Assembly: GCF_041361345.1 (NCBI RefSeq)
Contig: NZ_JBGKAD010000001.1
Coordinates: 1,240,001 to 1,304,000 of the forward strand
Source: Halobaculum sp. MBLA0147
GTDB lineage: Archaea; Halobacteriota; Halobacteria; Halobacteriales; Haloferacaceae
Direction of reading: 5' to 3'
DNA length: 64,000 nt
Shown: positions 20,207-30,278 of the stretch, piece by piece
How the letters are laid out: each line of letters begins with the position of its first letter
Position numbering within the stretch: position 1 is the stretch's first letter
Translations under genes and position numbers: made by a program
The notes under the pieces: model-generated
What the model saw: the letters and a program-made list of their open reading frames with translations, nothing else
Database searches by the model: none
What the model was told of the DNA's origin: nothing

Positions 20207-20312
20207 GGAGACGGCCGCTCGCCCGCAGACGGACGCGCCCCGAGGCGGCCGTCGACCCGTCGACGAGCGTGATCCGAGACGGCTGCCCACCAACCGCCGG
20301 ACACCCGCAGAC

Positions 20313-22277
20313 TCAGCCGGACTCGGCGCGGTGTTCGGAGATGATCTCGTCGACCATCTCGGCGGTCTGCTGGCGTTCGCGCTCTTCGGCACGACGCTCC
20401 CAGTCGTCGATCACCGCCTGCACGTCGCTCTCGCGGGCGACGGCGAGGTCGTCGACCTCCTGCATCTGTACGTCCTCGGCGGGGCCGACCGGCACGTCCG
20501 CCTCGAACAACACCTCGTCGGCGGCGTCCGAGAGCCCACCCGAGCGCAACACGACGCGCGGGTCCGTGGCGACGAGCCGTTCTGCGGTCGCTCGACCCGC
20601 GCCGGAGGCGTCGCGCAAGTACACCACGTCGCCCGAGGCGAGCCCGTACTGCTCGTCGGCCGCGCGGATGTCGTCTTTCGTGAACTGCTCGACGACCTTC
20701 ACCGGGACGAGGTCGCGGCCCTCGGCCACGTCCGCGAAGTCGTCGTGGTCGAGCTTCCACAGCGTCTTCAGCCGCGCGAGCTTCTCCTCCATCGCCTCGA
20801 GGTCCGCCCGTGCCTCGTCGCGTTGTCGCTCCAGGCGGTCGTTCTCGCGCCGGAGTCGCGTCACCTCCCGGTCGCGGCGCGCCTCGCGGCGCTCCTCGCG
20901 GCGGGCGTCGGACAGCTCCGTCTCCAACTCCGCGATCCGGTCGTCCTTCTCGTCGAGTTCCGCCTGGAGGTCGTCCGTGTGGCTCTGGAGCCGCTCGACC
21001 TGCGCCTCCAACTCGCGGATGCGCCGCTCCTCCTCGCTCAACTCCGGCTCCTCGTGGCCGTCGTCGTCCTCCTCGGGCTCCGGGTCGTCGCTCAACTCCC
21101 GGAGCACCGCCTCGACGGACGCCTCCCCGGAGACGACGCGGGCGATCACCTCGTCGCGGTCGACCCCGGCGGGCACCTTGCGGGCGATCCGCTCGAACTG
21201 GTCCTCGTGGTCGTCGAGCGCGTACAGCGCCGCCGCCATCGCGTCCCGCTCGTGGTCGTTCTCGTAGTCGTACTCGCGCGTCCGGTGGAGCTTCTCGTCG
21301 ACCGGCAGGTCCGTCTCCGGGGTCCACCCGGCGGCGTCGAACGAGCGCCGGAACTGCTCGACCGTCTCCGGCATCGGCGTCACGTCCGCCGCGACGACGA
21401 TCGGCCGACCCCGCTCGACGAGCCACTCGATCACGTCCGCGGTGTCGGCGGTTCGCGTCGAGTGGACGTCGTGGACCTGCCCGTCGAGCCCGACGACGGC
21501 GACGGCTGTCGTCGTCCCCGGGTCGATCCCGACGAGGACGTGGTCGCGCCGCTGGACCAGCGGCTCGAACTCGATCCCGTCCTTCCGCTCGCGGTCGATC
21601 TCGATCCGCGTGTCGCCAGCGCGTTCCCGCGAGACCGGCAGTTCCTCCGGCGTCGCCTCGACGGTGAAGACGGCGTTCTGGAACCCCCCGTACTTCTCCG
21701 TCACGTCGCGTTCGTACGCGAGGTTCGCGTCCTCGAGCATCGACTCCACCTCGCGGGCACGCTTCTTCACGTTGCCGTGGATGCGGCGGGTGTAGCGGTC
21801 CTGACTCCAGCCGCCGGAGCCGGTCGAGCGACCGCGCGAGACCTTCACCGTCGTCGTGTCCGCGAAGGCGGTCACCTCGTAGCCGACGTTGGCGGCCGCG
21901 AGCCGGGCGGCCGCCTCCGCCTCCTGCATCGGGTCGTCGCCGTACGGGACGCCGTGGCGGGCCGCGACCCGCGAGAGCGGCTCCGGGCGCTCGTCGCCGG
22001 TCACCTGGACCAGCGACGTACCGCCCGGCAGCGAGCGGAGGAAGCGGACGAGCGCGTCCTTGTCGGCCGCGAGCTCGTACATGTTGTCCGTCCCCACCAG
22101 CGCGGGTTCGACCTCGTCGATCCGCCGCCGGAGCTTCCGGTGGCTCACCACGTCGCGTGTCACCGCCTCCCCGTCGAACTCGACCAGCGCGTAAGAGGGA
22201 CTGTCCCCCCGAACGTCGCCGCTCTGTACGTCGACACCGAACACGACCGAGTCGAGCGCACTCGTCCGGGCGTTCAC
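20313..22277 (-). CDS. DUF460-family protein with RNase H-like domain and coiled coil
   Basis: 654 residues from GTG 22277. The N-terminal part (VFGVDVQSGD) and the middle LVGIDPGTTTAVAVVGLDG (about residues 245-263) are RNase H-fold metal-binding motifs, with VDEKLHRTREYDYENDHERDAMAAALYA as the helical end. Residues about 400-540 form a long charged coiled coil (SEEERRIRELEAQVERLQSH onwards), and the C-terminal domain ends with ASGDVVYLRDAS and a Glu/Arg helix. This is the archaeal DUF460 layout; nucleic-acid processing is suspected but the activity is not known. It diverges from the LOV histidine kinase gene. Confidence 0.85.
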   Translation of the reverse strand: MNARTSALDSVVFGVDVQSGDVRGDSPSYALVEFDGEAVTRDVVSHRKLRRRIDEVEPALVGTDNMYELAADKDALVRFLRSLPGGTSLVQVTGDERPEPLSRVAARHGVPYGDDPMQEAEAAARLAAANVGYEVTAFADTTTVKVSRGRSTGSGGWSQDRYTRRIHGNVKKRAREVESMLEDANLAYERDVTEKYGGFQNAVFTVEATPEELPVSRERAGDTRIEIDRERKDGIEFEPLVQRRDHVLVGIDPGTTTAVAVVGLDGQVHDVHSTRTADTADVIEWLVERGRPIVVAADVTPMPETVEQFRRSFDAAGWTPETDLPVDEKLHRTREYDYENDHERDAMAAALYALDDHEDQFERIARKVPAGVDRDEVIARVVSGEASVEAVLRELSDDPEPEEDDDGHEEPELSEEERRIRELEAQVERLQSHTDDLQAELDEKDDRIAELETELSDARREERREARRDREVTRLRRENDRLERQRDEARADLEAMEEKLARLKTLWKLDHDDFADVAEGRDLVPVKVVEQFTKDDIRAADEQYGLASGDVVYLRDASGAGRATAERLVATDPRVVLRSGGLSDAADEVLFEADVPVGPAEDVQMQEVDDLAVARESDVQAVIDDWERRAEERERQQTAEMVDEIISEHRAESG

Positions 22278-22401
22278 GCACCACCGTACGGGTGTGAGTG
22301 ACAAAAACTCCGCGGGGGTGGCGACCGCCGAGCCGACGGTCGACGCGAGGTGGGTCCAGGCGCGACACAGACTTTTGACGAACCAGTCCCTTGCGGCCGG
22401 T

Positions 22402-25374: not shown

Positions 25375-26394
25375 GTGACAGACGATAAAACGAGAGACGA
25401 TATAGCAATACGTGTCGATCGTCTTCACAAAACGTTCGGTGGGGAGGACGGCACGACTGCCGTCGACGGGGTCAGTTTCGAGGTCCCCTCGGGATCTGTC
25501 GTCGGAATCCTCGGTCCGAACGGTGCCGGGAAGACGACGACGATCAAGTCGATTCTCGGCTTAGTCCAGCCCGACGCAGGTGAGATAGAGGTCTCGAACA
25601 TCGACGTACGAGAACAGCCGCGGGCTGCCTACGCTCGGATGGGTGCGATACTCGAGGGCGCACGGAACATCTACTGGCGGCTCACCGTCCGCGAGAATCT
25701 CGAGTTCTTCGCAGGGTTAGGAGGAGATCACCCGGAGCGTCTACGAGAACGTCACGACAGGTTACTCGAGCGGTTCGAACTCGCCGACTGGGCGGACACG
25801 CCTGTCCGGGAACTCTCACGGGGAATGAAGCAGAAGGTGTCTCTCGCCACGACACTCGCGAGAGATGTCGACGTCGTGTTCATGGACGAACCGACTCTCG
25901 GTCTCGACGTGGAAGCGTCGGTCGAACTCCGGTCCGAACTCCGACGGCTGTCGGCTGACGAGGAGGTGACAGTCGTCCTGACCAGTCACGACATGGACGT
26001 GATCGAACAGGTCTGTGACAGTGTGATACTACTCACCGACGGGTCCGTACTCACACACGAAGAGGTCGATCGGTTGATCGACACGTTCCGGACCAAGGAG
26101 TACCGTGTGACGCTCGCGGCACCCGTCTCCGACGACGTTCGCCGGCGTGTCGAACGTGTTACAGACGCGGACTGGGAGCGCAGCGGTGATCGCGTGTCGG
26201 TAGCGTTCCGGGCACCCAGAGGCGAGACGGTCTACGACGTGGTCGAGCTGCTCTCCGACGCCGGCATCGAACTACGTGACATCGAGTCGATGGAGCCGAA
26301 CCTCGAAGATGTCTTCCTCCACCTAACCGAGGAGACGACGGAGTCGTCGGAGTTCGACGGCCTCGATCAGGTGGCAGAACGGGGGCGATCGTGA
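25375..26394 (+). CDS. ABC transporter ATP-binding protein (ABC-2 type exporter)
   Basis: 339 residues from GTG 25375; CCTTATAATATG 25-30 bases upstream is a strong leaderless promoter. Walker A GPNGAGKTTT near 47, Q-loop region, signature LSRGMKQKVSLA near 145, Walker B VVFMDEPTLGLD near 165 and H-loop SHDMDV. The about 100-residue C-terminal extension (EYRVTLAAPVSDDVRRRVERV to LTEETTESSEF) is typical of DrrA/CcmA-like exporter ATPases. It overlaps the permease by 4 bases and leads a cluster of two small precursors and a methyltransferase, so it most likely exports or gives immunity to their product. GC is visibly lower than in flanking genes. Confidence 0.9.
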   Translation: MTDDKTRDDIAIRVDRLHKTFGGEDGTTAVDGVSFEVPSGSVVGILGPNGAGKTTTIKSILGLVQPDAGEIEVSNIDVREQPRAAYARMGAILEGARNIYWRLTVRENLEFFAGLGGDHPERLRERHDRLLERFELADWADTPVRELSRGMKQKVSLATTLARDVDVVFMDEPTLGLDVEASVELRSELRRLSADEEVTVVLTSHDMDVIEQVCDSVILLTDGSVLTHEEVDRLIDTFRTKEYRVTLAAPVSDDVRRRVERVTDADWERSGDRVSVAFRAPRGETVYDVVELLSDAGIELRDIESMEPNLEDVFLHLTEETTESSEFDGLDQVAERGRS

Positions 26395-27194
26395 CTATGA
26401 CCCGATCAGAGTCTGGACACTCGGGTTCGCTGTGGCTGTTGTTCCGTACGATCTCGCAGAAGGCGATCGTCACGATGGTTCGGTACCCAGTCGACACGGC
26501 TTCGCAGTTCGTCGGGTTGTTCGTTCTGTTCCTGTTGGTCTTCTTCGGCGGTACCGCAGTCGGTGGTCAGCAGTTCTCGGACAGTCTCGAAGGGGTCGTG
26601 ATCGGATTCTTCCTCTTCACCGTCGCCTCGGGGGCGTACGCCGGTGTGGCGAACAGTGTCTCCACCGAGTCCGAGTGGGGGACACTGGAACGCCTCTACA
26701 TCTCTCCGTACCGGTTCGGTACGGTCGTCGCCGTGGATGCACTGGTAAACGTCGTGATCAGTGTCCTCTGGGCCGTCGTGCTGTTGGTCCTGATGATGGG
26801 AGTCACCGGTCGGTGGCTCAGCGTCGATCCACTCACTGTTGTGCCCTTGTTGGTCGCAACCGTCACACCGGTCTTGGGACTCGGGTTCGCGTTCGGCGGT
26901 GCGGCGTTGGTGTACAAACGAATCGAGAGCGTGTTCCAGTTGGTGCAGTTCGCGTTCGTCGCACTCATCGCTGCACCGGTCGGTGAAGTCTGGATACTCC
27001 GACTGTTACCCGCCTCACACGGAGCCTACCTCACCCGCCGAGCGATCGAGTCGAACCGCAGTCTACTCGAGTTTCCATCCGGGGAGATCGCGCTCGTCTT
27101 CACGACTGCGATCGTCTACTTCACCGTGGGTTACTACGTGTTCGTGCGTGCGACGACGGTCGCCCGTAGTCGCGGTGTGATGGGACACTACTGA
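26391..27194 (+). CDS. ABC-2 family transporter permease
   Basis: 267 residues (GTG 26391 overlaps the ATPase stop; ATG 26397 is the alternative start). About six hydrophobic segments: FVGLFVLFLLVFFGG near 40, a second near 65, then VVISVLWAVVLLVLMMGV, VVPLLVATVTPVLGLGFAFGG, FQLVQFAFVALIAAPVG and ALVFTTAIVYFTVGYYVFV at the C-terminus. Layout fits the DrrB/ABC-2 fold that pairs with the preceding ATPase. It is followed by a 195-base gap with a new promoter and then the first precursor gene. Confidence 0.85.
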   Translation: MTMTRSESGHSGSLWLLFRTISQKAIVTMVRYPVDTASQFVGLFVLFLLVFFGGTAVGGQQFSDSLEGVVIGFFLFTVASGAYAGVANSVSTESEWGTLERLYISPYRFGTVVAVDALVNVVISVLWAVVLLVLMMGVTGRWLSVDPLTVVPLLVATVTPVLGLGFAFGGAALVYKRIESVFQLVQFAFVALIAAPVGEVWILRLLPASHGAYLTRRAIESNRSLLEFPSGEIALVFTTAIVYFTVGYYVFVRATTVARSRGVMGHY

Positions 27195-27299
27195 CGGCAC
27201 ACGCCGCTCCCGTCGGCCGGAAACCCGTCTCTCATCCGTTGCTCGGCGGACTCCCCGTCGTCAGACACGCCCACCCGGTGAATTCGTCCTCCCGAGTAC

Positions 27300-27370
27300 T
27301 ATAATGTAAATTATGTAAAAGTCTAATACGTTCTACAGTAATTGTACCGTGTGCACGTCCAAAGCACACG
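27300..27370 (+). promoter_or_regulatory. Promoter and 5'-UTR hairpin of precursor gene 1
   Basis: Two AT-rich TATA candidates, TATAATGT (27300-27307) and TTATGTAAAA (27311-27320), are followed by a perfect 7-bp hairpin: CGTGTGC (27348-27354) pairs with GCACACG (27364-27370) around 9 nt. The coding start at 27390 then lies about 48 bases after the predicted transcription start, an unusually long leader for a haloarchaeon. The hairpin may be an operator or a translation control element. Confidence 0.55.
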
Positions 27371-27389
27371 TGATGTGATTCACAGGAGC

Positions 27390-27572
27390 ATGGAGAGCGA
27401 ACAGTTCGTGCAGGCGTTGCAGCACGGGGACCCCGACCTCGACAACCTCGATCTGTCCGAGGAGGAGAAAGACGCGATCCGCTCCGACGACGACAGCGAC
27501 ATTCAGGAGTTGATCGGGACGATCAAGTCCGACGTCCTCGTCGCGGTCGTAGTCACGATCGCCCGAGCATAG
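27390..27572 (+). CDS. Putative borosin-type RiPP precursor peptide 1
   Basis: 60 residues. Leader residues 1-45 are acidic and helical (FVQALQHGDPDLDNLDLSEEE, then DIQELIGTIK), resembling Nif11-like and split-borosin leader domains. The tail DVLVAVVVTIARA (48-60) is almost entirely beta-branched or small hydrophobic residues, as borosin core peptides are. ATG 27390 is preceded closely by AGGAG; a GTG at 27372 is an alternative. Its leader aligns with precursor 2: FVQALQHGDPDLDNLDLSEE against FLQQFNSDPEAALAEMDVSEE. Precursor role is inferred from the neighbouring methyltransferase. Confidence 0.72.
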   Translation: MESEQFVQALQHGDPDLDNLDLSEEEKDAIRSDDDSDIQELIGTIKSDVLVAVVVTIARA

Positions 27573-27670
27573 AGGGAGCAACCCCCTTGTCCATCTTGTA
27601 TATGTACATTTATGTCTCTCCGACAAATATGCGTTAACTACAAGTAGATATAACACACACTGAGGAATAC

Positions 27671-27690
27671 ATGTCAGAAGCTTCTGACAT
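27671..27690. promoter_or_regulatory. 20-bp perfect palindrome at the start codon of precursor gene 2
   Basis: ATGTCAGAAG (27671-27680) is followed directly by its exact reverse complement (27681-27690), so the palindrome begins on the A of the start codon. GAGG at 27662-27665 is a Shine-Dalgarno with normal spacing. The palindrome could be a repressor operator or an mRNA fold that hides the start codon. AT-rich promoter elements (GTTAACTAC, AGATATAAC) lie at about 27632-27655. Confidence 0.7.
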
Positions 27691-27907
27691 TCAGACGGTG
27701 TTGGACCGATCTATGAACGACGAGAAGTTCCTCCAACAGTTCAACTCGGATCCAGAAGCTGCTCTCGCCGAGATGGACGTGAGCGAAGAGGCCGAGGAGA
27801 GCCTGAAGGCGGAGGAAGACGGGAGTATCTACGACTACCTCGACTCGCTCAATATGGCAACCGTGTACACGATCACGATCACCTACGTCTCGAGAAAGCG
27901 GGACTGA
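27671..27907 (+). CDS. Putative borosin-type RiPP precursor peptide 2
   Basis: 78 residues. Leader residues 1-60 are acidic and helical (DIQTVLDRSMNDEKFLQQFNSDPEAALAEMDVSEEAEESLKAEEDGSIYDYLDSL). The tail MATVYTITITYVSRKRD (62-78) alternates Thr with Ile, Val and Tyr and ends in a basic stretch, so it could be trimmed. It has its own promoter and a GAGG ribosome site, suggesting expression apart from precursor 1. Twenty bases separate its stop from the methyltransferase gene. Confidence 0.74.
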   Translation: MSEASDIQTVLDRSMNDEKFLQQFNSDPEAALAEMDVSEEAEESLKAEEDGSIYDYLDSLNMATVYTITITYVSRKRD

Positions 27908-27927
27908 CTGAACAGATTCTCGTTATC

Positions 27928-28776
27928 ATGGACGGCTTCGACAACCCGGTAGACATCTACATCGTCGGGACTGGCATGGTGGGGTACCGGCAGATGACCG
28001 AAGAGGCGGAGGCTGCGCTCCGAAACTCGGAGACGGCGTACTTGATCCACTACCAGAAGGTGGTCGCCGACTACGTCGAGGACACCGTCGCGTCCGAACT
28101 GGGCGACGTGTCTGGAGAACTGATACAGTTGACCGACGAGTACCAGGAAGACGAGGACCGAGCGAACACGTACGAGCGCATGGCGGCACGGGTTATGGAT
28201 GGTGCCGAAGCGGCGGACAACCCAGTCTGTCTCGCACTGTACGGACATCCGAACGTCTTCGTCTCGCCGACCGAGTGGATCGCCGATGAGGCCGAGGAAA
28301 GAAACATGAACGTCGACATCCGTCCCGGCGTCTCGTCGATGGATGCGTTGTACAGTGATCTGATGTTGGACCCGTCACGGAACGGGATTCAGATGTTCGA
28401 GGCGACGGACCTCCTGATCCGCGAGTTCGATCTCAACCCGCACGTACCGGCGTTCATCTGGCAGATCGGCACTCTTGAGACGGTGCTGTACACGACCGCG
28501 GACAGTAGTCCGGAACGGTTCGAGCGGTTCAGAGAGTACCTCGAACGCTTCTACCCGTCCGACCACACCGTGTACATCTGTCAGACAGCAGTGTACCCGA
28601 CGACACAGTCGAAACAGATCCCCGTCGAGATCGGTGACTTCGAGGAGAAACACGACGAGATCAACGGGGTGCAGACGCTGTACGTCCCCCCGGTAGAGCG
28701 GAAGGAGGTCGTGAACGAGGAGTTGGAAGAACAAGTCGTCTCCTCGGACCACTTGGAGACGATCACCGAGAACTGA
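27928..28776 (+). CDS. Borosin-like peptide backbone alpha-N-methyltransferase (tetrapyrrole methylase fold)
   Basis: 282 residues. The N-terminal VDIYIVGTGMVGYRQMTEEAEAAL is the tetrapyrrole-methylase SAM fold. Unlike diphthine synthase or CobA types it has LALYGHPNVFVSPT (YGHP at 105-108) and DIRPGVSSMDALYSDLMLDPS, the motifs of OphMA/SonM borosin methyltransferases, followed by EATDLLIRE. Near residue 78, DEYQEDEDRANTY places Tyr72, Arg78 and Tyr82 where OphMA has Tyr66, Arg72 and Tyr76; the OphMA Tyr63 position is Thr69 here. Core peptides are in separate genes, so this is a split system acting in trans. It adds methyl groups to backbone amides by analogy. GC is lower than in flanking genes. 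Confidence 0.82.
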   Translation: MDGFDNPVDIYIVGTGMVGYRQMTEEAEAALRNSETAYLIHYQKVVADYVEDTVASELGDVSGELIQLTDEYQEDEDRANTYERMAARVMDGAEAADNPVCLALYGHPNVFVSPTEWIADEAEERNMNVDIRPGVSSMDALYSDLMLDPSRNGIQMFEATDLLIREFDLNPHVPAFIWQIGTLETVLYTTADSSPERFERFREYLERFYPSDHTVYICQTAVYPTTQSKQIPVEIGDFEEKHDEINGVQTLYVPPVERKEVVNEELEEQVVSSDHLETITEN

Positions 28777-28796: not shown

Positions 28797-30155
28797 TCAG
28801 GTTCCTCGTTCCGCCATCATGTCGGCTGCGCGATCGGCCCAGCCGGTGTACCGGAAGCCGGCGACGACGACGAGCGTCATCCAGACGTAGTGGAGCCCGA
28901 CGGCGAGGTACGCCCCCGTCGGGCCGAGTCCGGCGACGACACCGAGCAGGTAGGTGCCGCCGAGTAGGACTCCGAACACGCCCGAGAGCCGCGCGACCAG
29001 CGGGACGCGCGTCTCGCTGGCGCCCTGGAGCGCCCCCGACAGGACGACGTAGGCGACGAGGAACACCCCGGTAGCGCCGTACACCCGGGCGAACGCGACG
29101 GCGTACGGGACCGTCGACGGGTCGTCGGTGAACACGCGGACGAACGCCGGGGCGAGCCCGACGAGCGCGAAGCCGACGACGCCGACGGTCGCCAGCCCGA
29201 GCCCGGTGGTGGCGTACCCCTCGTACAGCGCGCGGTCCGGGTCGCCGTCACCCAGCGCCTGGCCGACGACGACGGAGCTGGCGACGTTGTAGCCGCGCGA
29301 GAGCGGACTCGTCACCTGTTGGTACATCCGTCGCCCGATCTGGAACCCGGCGTTGACCGGCGTCCCGAAGCCGAGCAGCAGCGAGTTGAACGGGAACTCG
29401 GCCAGCGTGGCGGCGAACCCCTCGACGACGCGCGGGGCGGAGACGCGGACGAGTTGCCGAGCGATCACCGGGTCGCGTGGCCGGACGAGGGAGGCGTCCG
29501 ACCAGTCCGTCCACATCGCGGCGAGCAACAGCGTCGCCGTCAACCCGTTACCCACCGCCGTCGCCAGCCCGACGCCGAGGACGCCGAGTCGGGGGGCGCC
29601 GAACAGTCCTAGCCCGAACACGACGGAGCCGGCGATGTTGAGCGCGTTCGAGAGCACGTTGACGTACATCGGGGTGCGTGTGTCGCCGGTCCCCTGGAGC
29701 GAGCGCGCGCCGATCAGGGCGACGTGACGGGCCGGTGCGGTGGCGAAGACGATCGCGAGGTACGTCCCGCCGAGCGCGGCGGTCGCCGGCGACGCGCCGA
29801 GCACCGCCAGCAGTCGGTCCCCGAACAGCCAGCCGATCGCGACGAAGGGGAGTCCGGCGAGGATTCCCGTCAGGATCGCCTGTGTGACCGCCTCGTCGCG
29901 GTTGGCGACGGCGTCGGCGCCGGTGTCCTGACTCGACAGGGCGATGGCGCCGCCGCCGAGCCCGAGTCCGATCCGTAGCGGGAACCGGGCGTACAGGTCC
30001 GCCAGCCCGATGGCGACGACAGCCGCGGGGGAGAACTGCGCCGTGACGATCACGTCCGTCGTCCGCATCCCGGTCCGGAACACCTGCTCGGTCGAGACCG
30101 GCCACGACAGCGAGAGGACGCGCCGCCACACCCCGAACAGCCGACGCCAGTCCAT
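28797..30155 (-). CDS. MATE-family multidrug/toxin efflux transporter
   Basis: 452 residues with about 12 membrane segments. The MATE duplication is visible: TEQVFRTGMRTTDVIVTAQFSPAAVVAIGLADLYAR in the first half and RVVEGFAATLAEFPFNSLLLGFGTPVNAGFQIGRR in the second, plus GARSLQGTGDTRTPM and the equivalent ALQGASETRVP. It is a cation-coupled exporter of drugs or metabolites. It is convergent with the methyltransferase, with 20 bases between them, but its GC is like the rest of the chromosome, so membership of the cluster is unclear. Confidence 0.92.
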   Translation of the reverse strand: MDWRRLFGVWRRVLSLSWPVSTEQVFRTGMRTTDVIVTAQFSPAAVVAIGLADLYARFPLRIGLGLGGGAIALSSQDTGADAVANRDEAVTQAILTGILAGLPFVAIGWLFGDRLLAVLGASPATAALGGTYLAIVFATAPARHVALIGARSLQGTGDTRTPMYVNVLSNALNIAGSVVFGLGLFGAPRLGVLGVGLATAVGNGLTATLLLAAMWTDWSDASLVRPRDPVIARQLVRVSAPRVVEGFAATLAEFPFNSLLLGFGTPVNAGFQIGRRMYQQVTSPLSRGYNVASSVVVGQALGDGDPDRALYEGYATTGLGLATVGVVGFALVGLAPAFVRVFTDDPSTVPYAVAFARVYGATGVFLVAYVVLSGALQGASETRVPLVARLSGVFGVLLGGTYLLGVVAGLGPTGAYLAVGLHYVWMTLVVVAGFRYTGWADRAADMMAERGT

Positions 30156-30278
30156 ACCCACGGCTGGGTGGGGTGACGGTTCTAGGTGACGGAATCGGAA
30201 CCTCGTCGACGCACCGACGACCTCGGCGAGTGATTCCGAACGACCTTTGAGCGGCCTCTCCGTGACGCGACACGTCAC

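Follow-up and report, generated by a model that had tools for sequence, protein, structure and literature searches.

A perfect start-codon palindrome in a precursor gene of a split-borosin-like cluster from a haloarchaeon

Within the window, the whole 64-kb stretch of Halobaculum sp. MBLA0147 DNA that was analysed, positions 25375-28776 hold what is, judged from its genes, a haloarchaeal split-borosin-like cluster comprising an ABC transporter, two precursors, and an OphM/SonM-like alpha-N-methyltransferase. The first seven codons of the second precursor gene contain a perfect palindrome. The features concerned are the following.

25375-26394, + strand: ABC transporter ATPase, recognised by domain scan
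26391-27194, + strand: ABC-2 permease (E 7e-7, just under the gathering score)
27390-27572, + strand: precursor 1, 60 aa, whose leader aligns with that of precursor 2 and whose C-terminus is V/I/T-rich
27649-27653, + strand: TATAA, 22 nt from the precursor 2 ATG
27662-27665, + strand: GAGG, Shine-Dalgarno-like, 5 nt 5' of the ATG and not part of the predicted hairpin stem
27671-27690, no strand: the palindrome, ATGTCAGAAGCTTCTGACAT (20 bp, perfect), over the first seven codons of precursor 2
27671-27907, + strand: precursor 2, 78 aa, with an Os1348/NHLP-like leader and a V/I/T-rich C-terminal core (NCBIfam NF038399, E 7e-9, below the curated cut-off)
27928-28776, + strand: borosin-type alpha-N-methyltransferase (TP_methylase; Pfam PF00590, E 2e-19)

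In phmmer comparisons with PDB proteins, the methyltransferase matched dbOphM (1e-25) and SonM (3e-23), and in the alignment its Y72, R78, and Y82 fall opposite a Tyr, an Arg, and a Tyr of dbOphM. The catalytic residues of SonM are Y58, R67, and Y71 (PMC8429565); by their spacing, rather than by direct alignment, the three residues of the haloarchaeal enzyme look like the counterparts of these. As in split borosins, the precursors are encoded by ORFs separate from that of the OphM/SonM-type methyltransferase and carry a C-terminal core, their C-termini being ...SDVLVAVVVTIARA and ...NMATVYTITITYVSRKRD; backbone N-methylation of the core would be expected of such a cluster. The cluster resembles the type IV (split) borosin SonM-SonA from Shewanella (PMC8429565) and the fungal OphMA in its separate precursor with a TP_methylase-type alpha-N-methyltransferase and its V/I/T-rich C-terminal core, but differs from them in its archaeal host, its two adjacent precursors, and a leader that weakly matches an Os1348/NHLP-type profile. 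This likeness pertains to the cluster only, not to the palindrome.

The palindrome consists of two 10-bp arms with zero spacer (ATGTCAGAAG followed by CTTCTGACAT). It starts on the ATG of the 78-aa ORF and encodes MSEASDI minus the final base, and its symmetry ends exactly at 27671 and 27690, the preceding base being C and the following base T. The first-pass annotation had described an exact palindrome on the start codon with GAGG just 5' of it, and all of these details are correct. In addition to the TATAA at 27649, further TATA-like strings are found at 27599 and 27609. The 22 nt between TATAA and ATG is shorter than the usual archaeal spacing, if the TATAA serves the precursor 2 start. A start 3' of the palindrome, for which the next ATG, at 27710, may serve, was considered because the TATAA would put transcription initiation within the palindrome; it was rejected, as the homologues too begin with MS... 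at the aligned position. In five homologous loci (L007, L008, L009, L010, and L011), TATA-like elements lie at roughly -34 to -28 relative to the ATG of the precursor, a position that suggests near-leaderless precursor transcripts. Unlike these loci, the window's precursor 2 has no good TATA-like match in that interval.

The annotation also held that chance is very unlikely to put a perfect 20-bp palindrome on a start codon; the location is indeed unusual, the palindrome as such is not. A count over 864 kb of this genome (800 kb in stretches plus the window) gave 8 perfect palindromes of 20 bp or longer, or about one per 108 kb, where simulation with a third-order Markov model gave 5.9 per set; as an object alone, the palindrome is therefore ordinary. 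Its placement over a start codon is unusual. A null was made by recombining real start regions block by block, using 364 ATG starts from our own rough gene calls; a simple script made the calls, and about half of them were non-ATG and were excluded. Under this null, overlap of the start codon with a palindrome of 20 bp or longer, in any register, is expected at 2.3e-5 per gene. This amounts to about 0.0012 for the 54 genes called in the window, 0.017 for the 721 sampled genes, and 0.1 for a genome of 4300 genes, a number assumed from genome size. For the exact register, beginning on the ATG, the expectation drops to 1.0e-6 per gene and 0.004 per genome, and apart from precursor 2 none of the 721 called starts exceeded 7 of 10 pairs in this register. 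The any-register figure is the fairer one because the exact register was singled out only once the palindrome had been seen, and it needs a further discount, since a reader of the whole window looks for many kinds of patterns.

Of the possible codings of MSEASDI, 1.8% are palindromic, and therefore most of the coincidence is carried by the peptide. MSEASDI was also the only one of 365 sampled ATG N-termini that can be coded as such a palindrome. The genetic code permits this: the Ser codons TCN read NGA on the opposite strand and are thereby complementary to the GA in codons for Asp and Glu, while the GC in Ala codons is self-complementary. The codons used here are AT-rich synonyms, like the adjoining AT-rich intergenic stretch. 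GC and GC3 of codons 2-7 both lie in the 2nd percentile. This AT-richness hints at a constraint acting on the DNA or RNA and not on the peptide, and it is the strongest nucleotide-level sign of one, although the intergenic stretch beside the palindrome is equally AT-rich (40% GC).

Comparison with homologous precursors adjacent to a methyltransferase was made for seven genomes in which the precursor start could be identified (G250, G247, G390, G280, G352, G089, and G088), and all seven lack the palindrome, with 1-3 of 10 pairs in register and a longest arm of 3 bp. A homologue on a Haloarcula plasmid, assessed from its annotated GTG start, was not counted; at the DNA level it has the ATG start seen in G352. 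The leader RSMxDExFLxxFxSDPEA is kept in the homologous precursors. In an alignment of the five closer homologues it becomes recognisable after about residue 10, residues 2-7 being variable, so the conserved leader starts 3' of the palindrome-coded residues. According to the first-pass annotation, orthologous genes that keep the peptide but not the palindrome would refute its reading, and this is in the main what was found. However, the homologues in the alignment share only 25-37% identity, and their first residues differ as well; no close orthologue (>60% methyltransferase identity) was among those compared, and the same-genus genomes have no methyltransferase; a recently evolved element may escape such a comparison, recent selection being beyond the reach of homologues this distant.

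The palindrome is also solitary. With up to 3 mismatches allowed, its own genome contains no second copy, and with up to 2 allowed, the sequence is absent from 292 other Halobacteriales genomes, so that the suggested search near other genes of the genome gave nothing in its favour. Its half-site motif, GTCAGA and TCTGAC separated by 4 bp, is found at 6 places with at most 1 mismatch and is not enriched, the reversed control also being found at 6. The other intergenic regions of the cluster contain nothing like the palindrome, the best matches having 8-11 mismatches and shuffled sequences doing as well. An inverted repeat, CGTGTGC-acgtccaaa-GCACACG (27349-27371), lies 5' of precursor 1; its sequence is unrelated to that of the palindrome, and a motif common to both precursors was rejected on account of this difference.

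On balance, we regard the palindrome as probably fortuitous, an arrangement of codons 1-7 private to this lineage, rather than a dedicated regulatory element. Transcription and translation of precursor 2 would then proceed as for haloarchaeal genes in general, and the 8-bp hairpin predicted at its start would at most trim its initiation rate. While the sequence, its uniqueness, its non-conservation among distant homologues, and the statistics are direct observations, the absence of function is what we infer from them, and the palindrome may yet slow translation mildly or be an operator without counterparts elsewhere. Of the regulatory reading put forward at first, the exact palindrome and the placement of the AUG in a predicted stem hold good, but a dedicated role fails the tests of recurrence and conservation.

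The predicted fold, AUGUCAGA-AGCU-UCUGACAU, is an 8-bp stem of -8.8 kcal/mol in which the entire AUG is paired, and the unpaired probability of the AUG is 0.12 compared with a median of 0.56, placing it in the 10th percentile of starts; the parameters are those for 37 C and standard salt, whereas the haloarchaeal cytoplasm contains molar KCl. A cis-acting mRNA hairpin of this kind, covering the AUG 3' of a free GAGG, could lower or conditionally gate the translation of precursor 2 relative to that of precursor 1 and the methyltransferase. There is a precedent in Haloferax volcanii, where a 5' UTR stem-loop with a predicted stability of -7.4 kcal/mol modulates translation, which was abolished when the stem-loop was stabilised and raised when it was destabilised (PMC2636863). 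The stem at precursor 2 has a similar predicted stability and also lies near a start codon; unlike the haloarchaeal 5' UTR stem-loops, this predicted stem falls within the coding sequence and includes the AUG. Given the Haloferax stem-loop of similar predicted strength (PMC2636863), a mild effect on translation would be unremarkable even for a palindrome of chance origin. If transcription starts at the ATG, the hairpin would form the extreme 5' end of the transcript and the GAGG would be untranscribed. Leaderless transcripts are the majority in haloarchaea, with 72% in Haloferax (PMC4983044).

Although the AUG is predicted to be paired, as the first-pass annotation proposed in suggesting that an mRNA fold hides the start codon, a dedicated hairpin seems unlikely to us, as other starts of this genome are covered by stems as long and the stem is not conserved. 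Perfect stems of at least 8 bp cover the ATG at 15 of 364 starts (about 4%), the local MFE at the precursor 2 start is in the 42nd percentile as against the 10th for AUG accessibility, and the 100-nt fold differs from shuffled sequences by a z of only -1.41. Among the distant homologues, neither conservation nor covariation of the stem was found: the AUG is predicted to be open in four, and in the other three it is less accessible than that of precursor 2 but closed by unrelated structures with no palindrome. In addition, a hairpin leaves the perfect palindromy unexplained.

We consider it just as doubtful that the palindrome is a DNA operator at which a dimeric repressor, bound over the start codon, blocks the transcription of precursor 2 and the methyltransferase. 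The operators of dimeric helix-turn-helix repressors are palindromic, and the site matches them in its even, perfect two-fold symmetry and its length of about 20 bp. It is also AT-rich and lies beside TATA-like strings, and the unusual AT-richness of codons 2-7 would fit such a use. It departs from these operators in having no second site, no candidate regulator in the cluster, and no conservation. A site that recurs at other targets or at orthologous promoters would be expected of an operator, but the palindrome is a single genomic copy with half-sites at control level, no related site lies near precursor 1 or the transporter, and it is not kept in homologues. No HTH domain turned up in a scan of proteins encoded from 19.2 to 28.8 kb; a PAS/GAF histidine kinase is, however, encoded upstream. 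The proposal that the palindrome could bind a repressor was therefore not borne out, while a local operator with a single target is possible.

Less probable still is a recently evolved, gene-specific switch, either operator or AUG-hiding hairpin, acting on one of two borosin precursors and letting the archaeon choose which peptide is methylated, an arrangement that, if functional, would mean that an archaeal RiPP cluster differentially controls two precursors which compete for a single iterative methyltransferase. With a fortuitous palindrome as the preferred reading, the result is chiefly cautionary, in that a striking start-codon palindrome failed the tests of recurrence and conservation.

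The surrounding split-borosin-like cluster is more interesting than the palindrome. The literature that we found describes split borosins mainly from bacteria and none from archaea. The cluster is sporadic: its methyltransferase is present in 4 of the 170 genomes of the family and, at the level of the order, in 7 of 392 sampled. A scan of genome contigs gave one distant bacterial relative only, and viral contigs gave none; 17 plasmid records, one of them the Haloarcula plasmid, carry distant methyltransferases, and plasmid records showed no DNA-level match to the locus. In the same-genus genome G160, the flanks corresponding to 20310-22326 and 28814-30201 (82-85% identical) enclose about 5.8 kb of different DNA, and the GC content of the cluster is about 60% compared with 69%. 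The segment 22327-28813, which holds the lower-GC cluster, thus looks like a replaceable island. In another genome, G086, a divergently encoded candidate precursor (L014:3040-3393) carries a similar leader and, after it, six DDNIGYTGDS-like units in tandem, and may represent a multi-core precursor beside a borosin-type methyltransferase.
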